A DNA stretch of 64,000 bases from Anaeromyxobacter sp. Fw109-5 (GTDB lineage: Bacteria; Myxococcota; Myxococcia; Myxococcales; Anaeromyxobacteraceae): assembly GCF_000017505.1 (NCBI RefSeq), contig NC_009675.1, positions 1,674,001 through 1,738,000 of the forward strand, in the 5' to 3' direction. This document shows positions 21,484-27,745 of the stretch, piece by piece. Numbering within the stretch: the stretch's first letter is position 1; the number at the start of each line of letters is the position of its first letter. The notes under the pieces are model-generated. The model did no database searches, was not told the origin of the DNA, and worked only from the letters and a program-made list of their open reading frames with translations. A program made the translations under genes and the position numbers.

Positions 21484-22464
21484 TCAGCGCCCGGGCCCGG
21501 GCAGCGCCCCCATCCGGACCGCGAGGAACAGCGCGAGCAGGAGCAGCGCCCCCGCGAGCATCGCGAGATGGAGCCTCGCGGGCACGCGGCTCAGCCGGAA
21601 GCGGGTCGAGGGGTCCGAAGGTTCGCGCCGCACGATCGCCGCCTCGGGCGGGATGGGCCCCTCGCTGACGGTCCGGAAGGCGGTCAGGAGCGGGGCGAGG
21701 GCCGCCGCGCCGAGCAGCAGCGCGCCGACGATCGCGACGACCGGCGGCTGCTCCACCTCGCGCGCCGCGCGCGGGGCCGCGAGGGCGAACAGCGAGACGA
21801 TGCCGTTGTTCACGGCGTGCGCCGCGACCGCCGGCCAGATGGAGCCCGAGCGCCAGGCGAGCCAACCGAACACCCCGCCGAGCACCAGCAGCGCCGGGAA
21901 CCTCACGGGGTCGAGGTGGATGACCGCGAAGAGCAGCGTGGACGCGGCGAGCGCCGCGGCGGGCCGCCGGCGCGAGAGCAGGGTCGTCTGGAGATAGCCG
22001 CGGAAGGCGATCTCCTCGCAGACGGGCGCGACGAGCGTCGCGACGACGGCGAGCACCACGCGCTCGGCGAGCGAGCGGTCGAAGAGCTTCGCCACGTCGA
22101 AGGTCTCGATCCAGGAGCGCGGCATGAGCCGCTGCGCGCCGGCCATCACCCCCATCGCGAGCAGGGTCCCGGCGGCGCCGGCGAGCGCGCCGAGCACGAG
22201 CGGCGCCGGCCGCACGCGGCCGAGGCGCAGGTAGGGCACCGCCTTCAGGTTCGAGCCGGTGGCGAGCACCAGCGCGGGCAGCAGGAAGACGAACAGCTCC
22301 GACCAGACGAGCCCCACGAAGACGTGGATCGCCTGCGCGAGCAGCCCCGGCAGGAAGAGCGCGAGCAGCACCGCGAAGAACGCGAGCGCGCTCTTGGGCG
22401 CCGGGGGCGCGGGGGTCGGCTCGGCGGCCTCGGGGCTGGCATCCACGCCCGCGCAGGATGGCAC
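21484..22464 (-). CDS. CPBP-family (CAAX/Rce1-like) intramembrane metalloprotease
   Basis: The 326-residue multi-pass protein contains the Rce1/CPBP motifs: PVCEEIAFRGYLQ (Glu-Glu-x3-Arg), then FAVIHLDPVRFPALLVLGGV with His, and AAHAVNNGIVSL with His/Asn. About eight hydrophobic segments flank them. Such proteases act inside the inner membrane; bacterial members serve in bacteriocin immunity, protein sorting or unknown roles. The N-terminal 25 residues are Pro/Ala-rich. GTG at 22464 is the annotated start; a GTG at 22446 would also fit. It is divergent from coaBC across about 40 bases. Substrate unknown. Confidence 0.82.
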   Translation of the reverse strand: MPSCAGVDASPEAAEPTPAPPAPKSALAFFAVLLALFLPGLLAQAIHVFVGLVWSELFVFLLPALVLATGSNLKAVPYLRLGRVRPAPLVLGALAGAAGTLLAMGVMAGAQRLMPRSWIETFDVAKLFDRSLAERVVLAVVATLVAPVCEEIAFRGYLQTTLLSRRRPAAALAASTLLFAVIHLDPVRFPALLVLGGVFGWLAWRSGSIWPAVAAHAVNNGIVSLFALAAPRAAREVEQPPVVAIVGALLLGAAALAPLLTAFRTVSEGPIPPEAAIVRREPSDPSTRFRLSRVPARLHLAMLAGALLLLALFLAVRMGALPGPGR

Positions 22465-22494
22465 CGCCGGCCCTCACCGCAAAGCGTTCGAGGG

Positions 22495-22500
22495 TAATAT
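22495..22500 (+). promoter_or_regulatory. -10 box (TAATAT) before a probably leaderless coaBC
   Basis: TAATAT is close to the sigma70 -10 consensus and ends seven bases before the ATG at 22508. No convincing -35 box was found. The hexamer overlaps an upstream ATG at 22499, which makes 22508 the better start. Confidence 0.4.
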
Positions 22501-22507
22501 GGCCCGC

Positions 22508-23728
22508 ATGAACTTCCGAAACCGCACGGTGCTCCTGTGCGTCGGCGGCGGCATCGCCGCGTACAAGGCCTGCGAGGTCGCTCGCCTGGTCGTGAAGGGC
22601 GGCGGGACGGTGCGCGTGGCGATGACGCCGGCGGCGACCCGCTTCGTCGGGCCGCTCACGTTCCAGGCGATCTCCGGCGCGCCCGTGCTGGTCGACCTGC
22701 TCGACCCGGCGGCGGATCTCGCCTACGGGCACCTCGGCCTGGCCCGCGTGGCGGACCTCGCCGTCGTCGCGCCGGCCACGGCGGACCTCATCGCGCGCAT
22801 CCGGGCGGGGATGGGCGACGACGGGGTCACGACGACGCTGCTCGCCGTCACCTGCCCGGTGCTCCTCGCGCCGGCGATGAACACGCGCATGTGGGGAAAC
22901 GCGGCGGTGCAGGAGAACCTCGCGGCGCTCCGCGCCCGCGGGATGCACGTCGTCGGCCCCGAGGCCGGGGAGCTCGCCGACGGCGACGTCGGGGAGGGGC
23001 GCCTCGCCGATCCGGCGAAGATCGCCCTCGCGGCGGCGCGCCTCCTGGGCCGGCAGGACCTGGCCGGCCGGCGCGTGCTCGTCACGGCCGGGCCGACGCG
23101 CGAGCCGATCGACCCGGTGCGCTTCATCTCGAACCCCTCGACCGGGAAGATGGGCTACGCCGTCGCGGCGGTGGCGGCGCGGCGCGGCGCGGACGTGACG
23201 CTCGTCTCCGGCCCCACCGGGCTCGCGGACCCCGCGGGCGCGCGGGTGGTGCGCGTCGAGACCGCCGAGCAGATGGCCGAGGCGGTGGACGCGGCGACGG
23301 ACGGGATGGACGTCTTCGTCGGCGCGGCGGCCGTCTCCGACTACCGGCCCCGCGACGTCGCGGCGCAGAAGCGCAAGAAGTCCGCGGGCGACGAGACGCT
23401 CGTGCTGGCGCGCACCCCGGACATCCTCGCGGGGCTCGGCGCGCGGCTGGCGGGGCGCCCCGACGCGCCGGTGCTGGTCGGGTTCGCGGCCGAGACCGAG
23501 GACGTCATCGCCCACGCGCGCGAGAAGCTGAAGGCGAAGCGCTGCGACGTCGTGGTCGCGAACAAGGTCGGCGCGCCAGGGACAGGCTTCGGCTCGGACA
23601 CCAACCGCGTGGCGCTGGTCTCCGCGGACGAGCTCGCGGAGATCGAGGGCCCCAAGGAGCAGGTCGCCGAGGCCATCCTGGACTGGATCCTGCCGGTGCT
23701 GGACGCGCGTCGCCCGCGCGGGGGGTGA
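22508..23728 (+). CDS. coaBC: Bifunctional phosphopantothenoylcysteine decarboxylase / phosphopantothenate-cysteine ligase
   Basis: The 406-residue protein performs two successive steps of CoA synthesis. The N-terminal flavoprotein CoaC domain (1-180) has VLLCVGGGIAAYKACEVARL, APATADLIARIRAGMGDD and PAMNTRMWGNAAVQENL with the PAMN motif. The CoaB domain (185-400) has VLVTAGPTREPIDPVRFISN, NPSTGKMGYAVA, AAAVSDYRP and a DVVVANKVG segment. Length and motifs are standard. Two in-frame ATGs exist (22499 and 22508); the second is chosen because a TAATAT -10 box ends seven bases before it. It works in the same pathway as coaX earlier in the window, although the two are not adjacent. Confidence 0.94.
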   Translation: MNFRNRTVLLCVGGGIAAYKACEVARLVVKGGGTVRVAMTPAATRFVGPLTFQAISGAPVLVDLLDPAADLAYGHLGLARVADLAVVAPATADLIARIRAGMGDDGVTTTLLAVTCPVLLAPAMNTRMWGNAAVQENLAALRARGMHVVGPEAGELADGDVGEGRLADPAKIALAAARLLGRQDLAGRRVLVTAGPTREPIDPVRFISNPSTGKMGYAVAAVAARRGADVTLVSGPTGLADPAGARVVRVETAEQMAEAVDAATDGMDVFVGAAAVSDYRPRDVAAQKRKKSAGDETLVLARTPDILAGLGARLAGRPDAPVLVGFAAETEDVIAHAREKLKAKRCDVVVANKVGAPGTGFGSDTNRVALVSADELAEIEGPKEQVAEAILDWILPVLDARRPRGG

Positions 23729-23899
23729 CCCACGGTCCGCTCACCCCCCGGGCGTCGCCTCTGCGAGGGCGGGCGCGAGGCCGAGGGGGCGCGACGGGGA
23801 GGGGCCGCCCGCTGGAGGAGGGAGGCGGCGAGCGGACGACGCTTGCCGCGACGTGCAGCAAGCAGGGCACGATGACGAGCGCGTCACCGGTCCGCGCGC

Positions 23900-24283
23900 A
23901 TGGAGACCCTCGACATCCTCGTAGTCGACGACGACGCGGACATCCGCGAGGCCCTCGGCCTCGCGCTGGAGCTCGAGGGGTACAGCGTCGGGCTCGCGCG
24001 CGACGGCGGCGCCGCCTGGGCGCTCCTCGCCGGCGGCGCGAGGCCCGCGCTCGTGCTGCTCGATCTCGCCATGCCCGTGCTCGACGGGGCGGCGCTGCTC
24101 GCGCGCATCCGCGCCGACGACCGCCTTCGCCACCTGTGCGTCGTCCTCGTCACGGCGTTCGCGTCGCCGGCGGACGCGACCCGCGCGCAGGCGGACGGGG
24201 TGCTCCACAAGCCGGTGAGCCTGTCGGACGTCCTCGCCCTGGTGACGTCGACCTGCGGCGACCGGGTCGCGGAGCGGCCGTGA
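23900..24283 (+). CDS. Single-domain response regulator in a symporter-kinase operon
   Basis: The 127-residue protein is a complete CheY-like receiver with no output domain: ILVVDDDADIREALGLALEL holds the acidic pocket, LVLLDLAMPVLDG the acceptor Asp, VVLVTAF the Thr and VLHKPVS the Lys. Its stop overlaps the GTG of a small membrane protein gene (GTGA), which in turn overlaps the start of a symporter-type histidine kinase, so all three are translationally coupled. It is the natural phosphorylation partner of that kinase. Because it lacks a DNA-binding domain it should act by protein contact or in a phosphorelay. About 170 bases of GC-rich sequence without clear promoter boxes precede it. Confidence 0.85.
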   Translation: METLDILVVDDDADIREALGLALELEGYSVGLARDGGAAWALLAGGARPALVLLDLAMPVLDGAALLARIRADDRLRHLCVVLVTAFASPADATRAQADGVLHKPVSLSDVLALVTSTCGDRVAERP

Positions 24284-24540
24284 GGCCCGGGTCGGAGCGT
24301 GCCCGGATCGGCCGGGTGCTGCGGCAGCGCGCGTTCGCGGCGGGGTTCCTCGTCACCGGGGTGCTCGTGCTCGCCTGGCCCTTCGTGCGCGCGCCCAGGT
24401 TCCACCTCCTGCCCGCGTTCCTCCACCTCGTGGTGGCGTGGAGCGCCATCGTGGTGGGGCTCGCCGCCATGGCGCGCGCCCTCGCGCTCGGGGACGGCGA
24501 CGCCCGCGAAGGCGACGACCAGGACGCGCGCCGTGGGTGA
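24280..24540 (+). CDS. Small two-helix membrane protein coupled to the symporter-kinase
   Basis: The 86-residue protein has a basic N-terminus (RARIGRVLRQR), two hydrophobic helices (AAGFLVTGVLVLAWPFV and LHLVVAWSAIVVGLAAMARA) and an acidic tail. The GTG start overlaps the receiver stop by four bases, and its own end overlaps the following kinase gene by eight bases. The layout recalls the small DUF485/DUF4212 subunits encoded just upstream of solute:sodium symporters, and the small cbrX frame upstream of Pseudomonas cbrA. It may therefore be an accessory subunit of the symporter part of the kinase. That role is inference from position and topology; the frame itself is well supported by the overlaps. 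Confidence 0.65.
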   Translation: MRPGSERARIGRVLRQRAFAAGFLVTGVLVLAWPFVRAPRFHLLPAFLHLVVAWSAIVVGLAAMARALALGDGDAREGDDQDARRG

Positions 24541-27500
24541 CCTCGGCGTCCCGGCCGCCATCGTCGGCGCGTACTTGGCCGCCCTCTTCGGCGTCGCGGC
24601 GTGGGCGGAGCGGCCCGCCGGCCGCAGGCTGGCGGCCACGCCGCTCGTCTACGCGCTCTCCATGGGCGTGTACGCGACCACGTGGACGTTCTACGGCAGC
24701 GTCGGCTTCGCCGCCGAGAACGGGGTCCTCTTCCTCACCGTGTACCTCGGCCCCACGCTCTGCGCGATCGCGTGGTGGTGGACGGTCCGCAAGCTCATCC
24801 GGATCAAGGCGGAGTACCGCGTGACCGGGCTGCCCGATCTCCTCGCCCTGCGCTACGAGCGATCGCACCGGGTGTCACTGCTCGCCACCGGCCTGCTCGT
24901 GGTCGGGCTCGTGCCCTACCTCGCGCTCCAGCTGAAGACGCTGTCGGCGACGCTCGGCCTCGTGGCGGGCGGGACCGGTGCGCTCGCGTACCCGCGGGTC
25001 GGAGATCGCGTCGGCCCGCCGCTGGTCGCCTTGCTCGTGCTGTTCACGGTGCTGTTCGGGCTGAGGCGGGTCCGCCCGACGGAGCGCCACCCGGGCCTCA
25101 TGGTCGCGCTCGCGGCGGAGTCCGCCGTGAAGCTCGTCGCGTTCATCGCCGCCGGCCTGTACGTGACGTACGGTCGCTACGACGGGCTGACCGACGTGTT
25201 CCAGCGCGCGGCGGCGGCGCCGGCGCCGCTGGTGCCGGACCTCCTCGGGGGCCAGGGGGTGGTCACCTGGCTGCTGCACCTGCTCGTCGCCGGCGTCGCG
25301 GTCGTCCTCCTGCCGCGCCAGTTCCACGTCGCGGTCGTCGAGGCCTCCGACGAGCGCCACCTGCGCACCGCGATGTGGCTGTTCCCGGCCTACCTGCTCG
25401 CGATGAACGTCTTCGTCCTGCCGATCGCCCTCGGCGGGCTCCTCCTCGGCCTCCCCGTGGCGCAGGCGGACTCGTTCGTCCTGTCGCTGCCGCTCGAGGA
25501 GGGACGCAACGCGCTCTCGTGGCTCGTCTTCCTCGGCGGGTTCTCCGCGGGGACGGGGATGATCATCGTCGAGACGACGGCGCTGGCCACGATGATCTCG
25601 AACGACGTGGTGGTGCCAGCCGCCGACCGGTTCCGTCCGCTCGCGGGCCTGGGCCGGCACCTCCGGCCCGTGCGGTGGGTCAGCGCCGCGGCGATCCTCG
25701 CCGCCGCGTTCGCGTACGAGCGCGCGTTCGGCGCGCAGTACTCGCTCGCGTCGATCGGGTTCGTGTCCTTCGTGGCGGTGCTCCAGCTCGCGCCCGCGGT
25801 GGTGGGGGTCCTCTTCTGGCCGGGCGCGAGCCGCACCGGCGCCGTCGCCGGCATGTCCCTGGGGATCGCGGCGTGGGTGTACACGCTCGTGGTGCCGGTC
25901 CTGGCGCGCTCCGGATGGCTCCCGGAGTCGATCCTCACCCTGGGGCCGTTCGGGATCGAGCCGCTCCGTCCCGAGGGGCTCCTCGACGTGCACCTCGACG
26001 CCGTCTCCCACGCGGTGCTGTGGACGCTGGTCCTGAACGGCGGCGCGTTCGCCGTGGGGTCGCTCCTGTTCCCGCCCTCGTCCGAGGAGCTCGCCCGGGC
26101 CGAGCGCATCGTCGGCCTCCGCGCCCCGCCGCTCGCGCGCGACGCGGACGAGAGCCCGAGGGTGGCGCGCGTCGAGGACAAGCGCGCCGCCGCAGCGGCG
26201 CTCCTCGCGCGGTACCACGGAGAGGAGGACGGCGCCCGCCTCGCCGAGGAGTGCCTCGCCCGGGCAGGCGCGCCGCGGGAGGGCGGGCTCTCGGCGATCC
26301 AGCTCGCGCAGCTGCAGGCCGAGGTCGAGACGACGCTCGCCGCCGCCATCGGCAGCGCCGGCGCGCACGCGGCGCTCCGGCGCAACCCGCTCGTGCTCCC
26401 CGAGGAGTCCCGCGCCATCTCGGCGGCGTACGCCGAGATCCTCACCTCGCTCCAGGTCTCGCCCGCCGAGCTCGAGCGCAAGCGGGAGTACCACCGCGAG
26501 CGCGAGCGACTCCTCCTCCACGAGGCCGAGGCGCAGCGGCTCCTCGCGGAGATCAGCGGCCGGCTCGGCGCGTCGCTCGCGCTCGAGGACGTGGCGCGCG
26601 CGGCGGTGCGGCTGCCGGTCCCGCAGCTCGCGCAGGCGGCGGTGCTGTGGCTCGCCCCCGCCGGCGGGAGGCCGGGGCGAGCGTGGGTGGCGCACCCCGA
26701 TCCGGAGCGCGAGGGGGCGGCGCGGGAGGCGGCGGAGCGCGCGGCGGCGCACCTCGAGGAGGTGACGAGCGTCTCGCGCGCGCTCGCGACGGGGCGGCCC
26801 GTCGTGCGCCCGGAGGGGCCGGATCCGGGGTGGCCGGAGCCGCTGCGCGCGGCGGTCGGGCGCATGCGCGAGCTGACGCTGCCGCTGCTCGCCGGCCGGA
26901 AGCCCCTCGGCTCGCTCACGCTCCTCGGTGCGCCGCGGTCGGAGGGCGCGGACGACATCGCCCTCGCGGAGGAGGTCGCGCGGAGGCTCGCCATCGCGCT
27001 CGAGAACGCCCGCCTCTACGAGCGCGCGGAGGAGGCGGTGCGGGCGCGCGACGAGTTCCTCGCCGTGGCCTCGCACGAGCTGAAGACCCCGCTCACGCCG
27101 CTCCGGATCCGGATCCACGCCCTCGAGCGGCTCGTCGCGCGGGACGAGCTCGCGAGCGTCCCCCGCGAGAAGCTCGTCCAGCTCCTCTGCGGCGCCGAGG
27201 AGCAGGTGCTGCGCGTCGTGGGCCTCGTCGACGATCTGCTCGACGCCACTCGCATCTCCGCCCGGCGGCTGAAGCTCCGGCCCGAGCCGATGGACCTGGT
27301 GGCGAGCGTGCGCGCGGTCGTCGAGCGCCACGCGACGGAGCTCGCCGAGGCGCGCTGCGCGGTCCACGTGGACGCGCCCGACGAGGCGCGGGGCGTCTGG
27401 GACCGCCTGCGGGTGGAGCAGGTGATCACGAACCTCCTGCTCAACGCGGCGAAGTACGCGCCGGGGACGCGCGTGGACGTGCGCGTTCGATCCGACGGCG

Positions 27501-27745
27501 CGCGCGCCTGCGTCGCGGTGCACGACGGGGGGGCCGGCATCTCGCCGGAGGATCAGGAGCGCATCTTCCTGCCCTTCGAGCGGGCCGCGCGCTACCTGGA
27601 GGTGAGCGGGTTCGGGCTCGGGCTGTTCATCGTGCGCCAGATCGTCGAGGCGCACGGGGGCCGCGTGACGCTCGCGAGCGCCCCCGGGCAGGGGACGACG
27701 TTCACGATCGAGCTGCCGCGCGCCACCGCGCCGCCCCCTGCGTGA
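24533..27745 (+). CDS. CbrA-like sensor kinase: sodium/solute symporter domain fused to histidine kinase
   Basis: The 1070-residue protein begins with an SSS/SLC5-type transporter domain of about 12-13 helices (roughly residues 1-530; TTWTFYGSVGFAAENG, VTGLPDLLALRYERSH). An acidic helical linker comparable to the STAC region follows (about 540-670), then a GAF-like domain (about 680-835) that retains SLTLLG and IALENARLY. The kinase core has His848 in FLAVASHELKTPLTP and an ATPase domain (QVITNLLLNAAKYAPG, DGGAGISPEDQERIF, GFGLGLFIVRQIVEAHGG). This is the CbrA class, in which a transporter-like module senses or transports a nutrient (histidine for Pseudomonas CbrA) and controls phosphorylation. 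The coupled receiver upstream is its likely partner. Ligand unknown. Confidence 0.88.
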   Translation: MGDLGVPAAIVGAYLAALFGVAAWAERPAGRRLAATPLVYALSMGVYATTWTFYGSVGFAAENGVLFLTVYLGPTLCAIAWWWTVRKLIRIKAEYRVTGLPDLLALRYERSHRVSLLATGLLVVGLVPYLALQLKTLSATLGLVAGGTGALAYPRVGDRVGPPLVALLVLFTVLFGLRRVRPTERHPGLMVALAAESAVKLVAFIAAGLYVTYGRYDGLTDVFQRAAAAPAPLVPDLLGGQGVVTWLLHLLVAGVAVVLLPRQFHVAVVEASDERHLRTAMWLFPAYLLAMNVFVLPIALGGLLLGLPVAQADSFVLSLPLEEGRNALSWLVFLGGFSAGTGMIIVETTALATMISNDVVVPAADRFRPLAGLGRHLRPVRWVSAAAILAAAFAYERAFGAQYSLASIGFVSFVAVLQLAPAVVGVLFWPGASRTGAVAGMSLGIAAWVYTLVVPVLARSGWLPESILTLGPFGIEPLRPEGLLDVHLDAVSHAVLWTLVLNGGAFAVGSLLFPPSSEELARAERIVGLRAPPLARDADESPRVARVEDKRAAAAALLARYHGEEDGARLAEECLARAGAPREGGLSAIQLAQLQAEVETTLAAAIGSAGAHAALRRNPLVLPEESRAISAAYAEILTSLQVSPAELERKREYHRERERLLLHEAEAQRLLAEISGRLGASLALEDVARAAVRLPVPQLAQAAVLWLAPAGGRPGRAWVAHPDPEREGAAREAAERAAAHLEEVTSVSRALATGRPVVRPEGPDPGWPEPLRAAVGRMRELTLPLLAGRKPLGSLTLLGAPRSEGADDIALAEEVARRLAIALENARLYERAEEAVRARDEFLAVASHELKTPLTPLRIRIHALERLVARDELASVPREKLVQLLCGAEEQVLRVVGLVDDLLDATRISARRLKLRPEPMDLVASVRAVVERHATELAEARCAVHVDAPDEARGVWDRLRVEQVITNLLLNAAKYAPGTRVDVRVRSDGARACVAVHDGGAGISPEDQERIFLPFERAARYLEVSGFGLGLFIVRQIVEAHGGRVTLASAPGQGTTFTIELPRATAPPPA

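Follow-up and report, generated by a model that had tools for sequence, protein, structure and literature searches.

A putative CbrX-family membrane hairpin encoded between a receiver and an SLC5-STAC sensor kinase in Anaeromyxobacter sp. Fw109-5

We analysed a stretch of 64,000 nucleotides (nt) from Anaeromyxobacter sp. Fw109-5 (NC_009675.1, positions 1674001–1738000 of a 5,277,990-base genome in one contig), hereafter called the window, and within it a set of three genes for a receiver, a small membrane hairpin and a sensor kinase with an SLC5 transporter domain. These genes probably specify a coupled unit, in which an SLC5 transceptor kinase would work together with a hairpin subunit resembling CbrX, the small protein encoded next to the kinase CbrA in Pseudomonas, and would phosphorylate the receiver. 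Most likely the hairpin belongs to the sensor as a structural subunit. Outside the CrbS branch of these kinases it is linked to the SLC5 module in a near-obligate manner, and intermediate profiles place it in the CbrX family.

All three genes lie on the forward strand: the receiver at window positions 23900–24283 (ATG start, TGA stop, 127 amino acids, aa), the hairpin at 24280–24540 (GTG start, TGA stop, 86 aa) and the kinase at 24533–27745 (GTG start, 1070 aa). A first-pass annotation, made from the letters of the window, had described three overlapping genes with a two-helix membrane protein in the middle. The coordinates bear this out, with overlaps of 4 nt between receiver and hairpin and 8 nt between hairpin and kinase, and so do the hydropathy of the small protein and its AlphaFold2 (AF2) model, with helices at residues 5–37 and 43–85 (predicted local distance difference test, pLDDT, 78.8; predicted template modelling score, pTM, 0.45). 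The 8-nt overlap was kept in 9/9 loci of the subgroup, namely the window and L054–L061.

The hairpin gene and its linkage to SLC5 modules

We observed 80 matches to the SLC5 part of the kinase in 71/195 Myxococcota genomes. A hidden Markov model (HMM) of Myxococcota hairpins, A1, whose sensitivity is partly given by construction while its specificity is not, yielded 78 strong (E≤1.3e-7) and 8 weak (1.4e-4 to 0.007) matches in 189 Myxococcota genomes. Every strong match lay directly 5′ of an SLC5 match (78/78), and none of the weak ones did (0/8). Two SLC5 matches were left without a strong hairpin match: the one in G141, a genome perhaps outside the 189 searched, has a hairpin at its locus L074, and the one in G039 is itself weak (E 2.6e-7, open frame of 506 aa). 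Beyond these genomes we used genome-contig loci, an uneven sample formed by the 80 most similar to A2 among at least 561 matches listed. Over 9762 open reading frames (ORFs) of 86 loci the A1 HMM gave 82 matches, among which 73 adjoined an SLC5 start (72 loci), 5 lay 90–167 nt upstream and 4 lay elsewhere (E 0.57–0.99). For 79 genome-contig loci, counted without the duplicate L117, the hairpin was adjacent in 70, at 90–167 nt in 5, not found by this HMM in 3 (L125, L128 and L153) and lost to a contig edge in 1 (L127); it was present in 75/78 SLC5 loci with upstream DNA. The 86-residue gene is conserved beside SLC5-kinases, a point that the first reading had proposed to check.

Behind the hairpin, the SLC5 module is joined to a HisKA kinase, to an Hpt-HATPase kinase (L073) or to a GAF-SpoIIE phosphatase (L140, L160). 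By record title, hairpin rows of the tree described below come from Pseudomonadota, Myxococcota, Thermodesulfobacteriota, Nitrospirota, Bacteroidota, Actinomycetota and a single Moraniibacteriota metagenome-assembled genome that may be misbinned. At L140, a hairpin gene precedes an SLC5-GAF-SpoIIE phosphatase (L140:4977–9035) followed by STAS and HATPase_c_2 genes; this is apparently a transporter-fold sensor feeding partner-switching.

Because of the high G+C content, frames on either strand stay open over very long distances, for example at window 22498–24540. The hairpin gene sits inside such a frame of 680 codons; its open frame is therefore no evidence of a gene, and we judged it a gene by homology and position. 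For the homology we built a further HMM from 66 hairpins of genome-contig loci, picked by position and hydropathy: a two-helix scan gave 69/79 loci, from which L128 and L135 (false by eye) and the Anaeromyxobacter locus L117 (a copy of L068) were removed. Three of these hairpins are labelled Myxococcota (L145, L161, L167) and one has no phylum label. Among 588 window ORFs the hairpin frame came first (E 0.03, runner-up 4.2). In 40 Myxococcota loci, L071 and 39 that have a kinase, with 3534 ORFs in all, the same HMM had the hairpin frame as its sole match at E≤1 in 38 loci, with E 1e-28 to 0.15, and found nothing at this threshold in L091 and L071. The L091 hairpin is supported by position and alignment. 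A hairpin match at L071 (genome G011) was rejected as chance: it is inside a longer permease-like frame, and G011 has no SLC5-kinase match. W54 is invariant and P34 occurs in at least 90% of the aligned relatives, and alignments show this P and W conserved across phyla. The ratio of non-synonymous to synonymous substitution rates (dN/dS) was below 1 in 20/20 pairs (0 to 0.59, one pair with saturated dS). We also considered that the small frame is merely a chance open frame of GC-rich DNA, as its 680-codon surroundings and a dN/dS of 0.59, not far below 1, in the pair formed by the window could suggest; but the first rank obtained with an HMM of other loci, and the 9/9 loci in which an ortholog is found in this position and again overlaps the kinase by 8 nt, make this hardly credible.

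Kinases without a hairpin belonged to one type. In Pseudomonadaceae, CbrX was found beside CbrA-type kinases in 8/8 loci (L191, L206, L212, L214, L216, L217, L219 and L222), and a third kinase type also has a hairpin (L197, L198). Upstream of long-type kinases the count was 0/22, that is 20 loci among L197–L225 together with L190 (Pseudomonas) and L193 (Thalassospira); for the 20 this rests on a hydropathy scan of up to 170 nt upstream, with no HMM, and their sequences end at about 1015 aa, before any receiver. A C-terminal receiver was present in every hairpin-less kinase scanned over its full length, five in number (L125, L128, L153, L190 and L193). We called the long type CrbS-type by its length and this receiver, which is also reported, in the available sections of the respective papers, for CrbS (PMC5715377) and MxtR (PMC7918813).

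In a quick, unrooted tree of 78 SLC5 domains, in which RpuS was not placed, 11 hairpin-less rows made up one side of a branch (Shimodaira–Hasegawa-like approximate likelihood ratio test, SH-aLRT, 98) nested among hairpin-bearing rows; a single loss of the hairpin in the CrbS branch is the simplest reading of this unrooted tree. A receiver on the kinase is not the cause of the loss, since the L095 kinase shows a receiver match (E 1.8e-5) and nevertheless has a hairpin upstream. The screen that found L095 was insensitive, having missed the Pfam-visible receivers of L125, L128 and L153, and further hairpin-bearing hybrids of this kind may exist. Twelve SLC5 positions were conserved and then changed when hairpin-bearing rows were compared with CrbS-type rows; 4/12 (75, 90, 237 and 276) fall in reported CbrX-contact regions by our own mapping on AF2 helices, which is not clearly above chance. 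The S-helix described for CrbS (PMC5715377, available part) was considered as a substitute for the hairpin in the dimer and set aside: by eye, a long helix seems to precede the kinase core in the paralog class too, whose members do have hairpins.

The sensor kinase and its receiver

Four parts were recognized along the kinase, all on the forward strand. The SLC5 transporter domain (24533–26092, residues ~1–520) was assigned by PDB and fold matches and the STAC-like helical domain (26123–26443, residues ~531–637) by a profile link; they are followed by a GAF domain (26582–27004, residues 684–824; GAF_2 E 3.7e-8) and by HisKA (838–910) and HATPase_c (957–1064) at 27044–27724 (E 1.6e-10 and 6.5e-29, respectively). 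The SLC5 part matched chain A of PDB entry 10ed with E 5.6e-63 as a single sequence and 4.9e-155 by profile; the Pfam SSF family stayed below the Pfam cut-off on it. An AF2 model of residues 1–660 (pLDDT 88.2, pTM 0.86) shows an SLC5 fold, with a Foldseek top E of 3.8e-10 and, with VIA-align 2, a Z of 34.4 and an rmsd of 3.3 Å over 456 residues against human CHT1; 10ed was not among the matches listed by the fold searches. The STAC region of the window class was linked to that of paralog-class kinases (profile prob 95.5, E 1.5e-8), and this region in turn to its counterpart in CbrA-type kinases (prob 96.3). Compared directly, window class and CbrA type gave prob 1.6 and score 18.2, where controls scored ≤12.6. 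The PDB profile match of the STAC region (490–588) to 10ed_A was third in its list (E 0.059). We class the protein as a predicted SLC5-STAC histidine kinase, the STAC assignment running through this two-step link.

K200 aligns with K196 of CbrA, the lysine of the sodium-2 (Na2) site, and all rows compared have a lysine there; coupling to a proton rather than sodium is plausible. CbrA pocket residues Y51, W55, F71, Y75 and F406 correspond to Y47, W51, F67, Y71 and F413 of the window kinase, while S53, A56 and F248 are replaced by T49, T52 and A253. Histidine is not predicted as its substrate. The Pfam scan showed neither a C-terminal receiver, the CrbS trait, nor a PAS domain, in whose stead the kinase has the GAF.

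The first-pass annotation had proposed a receiver devoid of an output domain, and Pfam agrees: Response_reg was found (E 6.8e-21) and no other family at E≤1, as expected for a single-domain response regulator. D10, D11, D55 and K104 are kept in 9/9 aligned receivers, three downstream receivers of other loci included; we take D10/D11 to be the acidic pair, D55 the phospho-acceptor and K104 the remaining signature residue. Orthologs occur at L054 (81%), L055 (61%) and L061 (56%) and more distant receivers at L056, L058 and L059.

Such an output-less receiver is not peculiar to the window locus. A related class in the same genome has one downstream of the kinase: the paralog L070 (G000:C1:2301845–2303440) comprises a hairpin, an SLC5-kinase and a 124-aa single-domain receiver. 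In this class the receiver follows the kinase with a 4-nt overlap, whereas in the window it stands upstream. Given the upstream receivers of the subgroup and the downstream ones of the paralog class, single-domain receivers are a usual partner of these kinases. The L070 unit is followed by a CBS-DUF294 protein and the L096 and L152 units by a PAS-exonuclease; just 5′ of the window receiver lies a gene for a CoaBC-type flavoprotein with DFP and Flavoprotein domains (window 22352–23728).

Kinship with CbrX and the role of the hairpin

In the available sections of a 2026 preprint (PMC13022988), CbrX is seen bound to the transporter domain of CbrA in a cryo-EM map, as a hairpin with both ends inside that packs on transmembrane helices (TM) 3 and 8 of the SLC5 fold; AlphaFold models there show possible dimer contacts, and its role is left open. 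PDB 10ed holds a 606-aa chain A named 'histidine kinase' and a 58-aa chain X named 'MFS transporter'. We inferred it to be the CbrXA entry of that preprint because chain X is nearly identical to CbrX sequences beside CbrA-type kinases in Pseudomonadaceae and because counting along the alignment of our kinase with 10ed_A puts the lysine at 196. Chain X was the top PDB match of the A1 profile (E 0.0024) and of A5, the profile of a second Myxococcota class (E 1.1e-4). The window-class profile A6 matched A4 with prob 95.9, E 6.4e-9 and score 48.5, and A5 matched A4 with prob 95.7, E 8.5e-9 and score 46.0; controls, the reversed A4 and 44 SLC5 membrane segments, scored ≤17.6.

The small protein had been likened at first pass both to cbrX and to DUF485/DUF4212 subunits of symporters. 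The CbrX half of this comparison stands, through intermediates; the other half seems positional only, as DUF485 and DUF4212 profile scores (9.6–13.9) lie inside the range of reversed controls (8.9–16.5), with shallow alignments from Pseudomonadaceae only. Neither family was among the 25 listed for A1. A symporter subunit of the DUF485, DUF4212 or DUF3311 type, not related to CbrX, could nevertheless account for a similar position beside SSS symporters, DUF3311 being found in the mctP operon (PMC9100948, available part). Consistent with this, DUF4212 matched 1/40 A4 members (E 0.041), and DUF3311 weakly matched 3/40 A4 members (best E 0.0067) and 1/40 A1 members at E≤1, with profile comparisons at prob 7–15 and scores of 18.6–21.5 versus 9.2–16.5 for the reversed DUF3311. 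We regard kinship with DUF3311 as suggestive only and, CbrX being the top PDB match of a Myxococcota profile, the whole alternative as quite improbable.

We therefore favour a CbrX-type subunit, and the unit might function as follows. The three genes would be coupled in translation and act as a single signalling unit. The kinase would be a transceptor, with K200 at the sodium-2 position of its SLC5 fold followed by STAC, GAF and histidine kinase parts, and its SLC5 domain may perform proton-coupled sensing or uptake. The hairpin, by likeness to the Pseudomonas complex of the preprint, would lie against the transporter domain, its two ends in the cytoplasm, and may help sensor assembly or dimer contact. 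D55 of the receiver, whose gene immediately precedes that of the hairpin, is most likely the residue to which the kinase transfers phosphate. The receiver, having no output domain, would have to bind a partner or pass the phosphate on.

Several results weigh against this proposal. The A6 profile had no PDB match at E≤1 and so missed CbrX directly, A3 and A4 did not match 10ed_X, and the A6–A5 comparison gave only prob 2.5, the link running via A4; with A6–A4 and A5–A4 strong and the direct A6 search failing, the window hairpin joins CbrX only via intermediates. Covariation over 105 hairpin-SLC5 pairs (effective number 38) put the top signals mostly in the TM5 region, not at TM3/TM8. The receiver is upstream of the hairpin in 7/9 subgroup loci, the window counted; L060 and the 1.8 kb seen at L057 yielded no upstream receiver. 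The dN/dS of 0.59, highest of the 20 pairs, is that of the window hairpin and its nearest relative L054; selection on the window hairpin is therefore visible but weak. Finally, as far as the available sections of these papers go, growth on histidine is normal without CbrX (PMC13022988); the authors who showed translational coupling in P. putida argue that it is unlikely to matter which peptide CbrX is (PMC6591292); and the CrbS SLC5 domain can stand in for that of CbrA (PMC5715377), a finding that is hard to square with signalling strictly requiring CbrX.

The normal growth without CbrX and the P. putida work, together with the overlaps of 4 and 8 nt and the high dN/dS of the window pair, could be expected if the small gene were a mere leader, coupling ribosomes to the kinase start with a peptide of irrelevant sequence. 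We consider such a pure leader unlikely. The conserved P and W, the dN/dS below 1 in all pairs and the many loci with a gap in place of an overlap, five of them at 90–167 nt, weigh against it, and so does the cryo-EM map, in which CbrX is seen in physical contact with its sensor (PMC13022988). A subunit role and translational coupling may both apply.

Comparison with known transporter-kinase systems

We lean, though not by much, towards a wider interpretation: CbrX would be no Pseudomonas leader peptide but the Pseudomonas representative of an ancient hairpin subunit on which almost every SLC5-STAC transceptor depends, regardless of whether the output is a HisKA kinase, an Hpt-type kinase or a SpoIIE phosphatase that has STAS partners. 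The subunit would occur in six or seven phyla and would have disappeared a single time, when the CrbS type arose. If so, the hairpin would serve this sensor class in general as a coupling or dimer part and, if near-universal, would belong to the basic design of transporter-kinase sensors, with the hairpin-free CrbS branch as a natural comparison for its function. We found no literature report of CbrX relatives outside Pseudomonadaceae in the texts available to us; a 2015 J Mol Biol paper on STAC could hold one.

The closest known system is CbrX-CbrA-CbrB of Pseudomonas. In both, a small two-helix gene runs into the first codons of the SLC5-STAC sensor kinase gene in a layout that suits translational coupling, and the SLC5 domains are homologous with a lysine at the Na2 site. 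However, CbrA has a PAS domain where the window kinase has a GAF, and CbrB is an NtrC-type partner whereas the window partner is an upstream receiver without a DNA-binding part. A phmmer search of the window ORFs with the sigma-54 regulator of locus L077 found no such regulator, though this search missed the window receiver too. In the tree, CbrA-type rows are joined by a Myxococcota class other than that of the window (13 rows, SH-aLRT 100), and the window lies in a different clade. Thus, the name 'CbrA-like' given at first pass fits the SLC5 domain and not the kinase as a whole, which by clade, by its GAF in place of PAS and by its single-domain receiver is not a CbrA ortholog. CbrAB has been called unique to Pseudomonadaceae in the available part of PMC8871633. 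Locus L077, from another family of the same order, perhaps Myxococcaceae, encodes a CbrX-like hairpin, a CbrA-like kinase and an overlapping sigma-54 response regulator as CbrB-like partner; its kinase groups with Pseudomonas CbrA, and it is a CbrXAB-like trio outside Pseudomonadaceae.

CrbS, of the CrbS-CrbR system, is like the window protein an SLC5-STAC histidine kinase, but CrbS-type kinases have a C-terminal receiver and no hairpin, whereas the window kinase has a hairpin and no receiver. RpuS, of the RpuS-RpuR system, is likewise an SLC5-STAC kinase. As an analogy only, human SGLT1/2 have been solved with MAP17 according to structure titles, again an SLC5-fold transporter with a small partner; MAP17 has one membrane helix and binds elsewhere.

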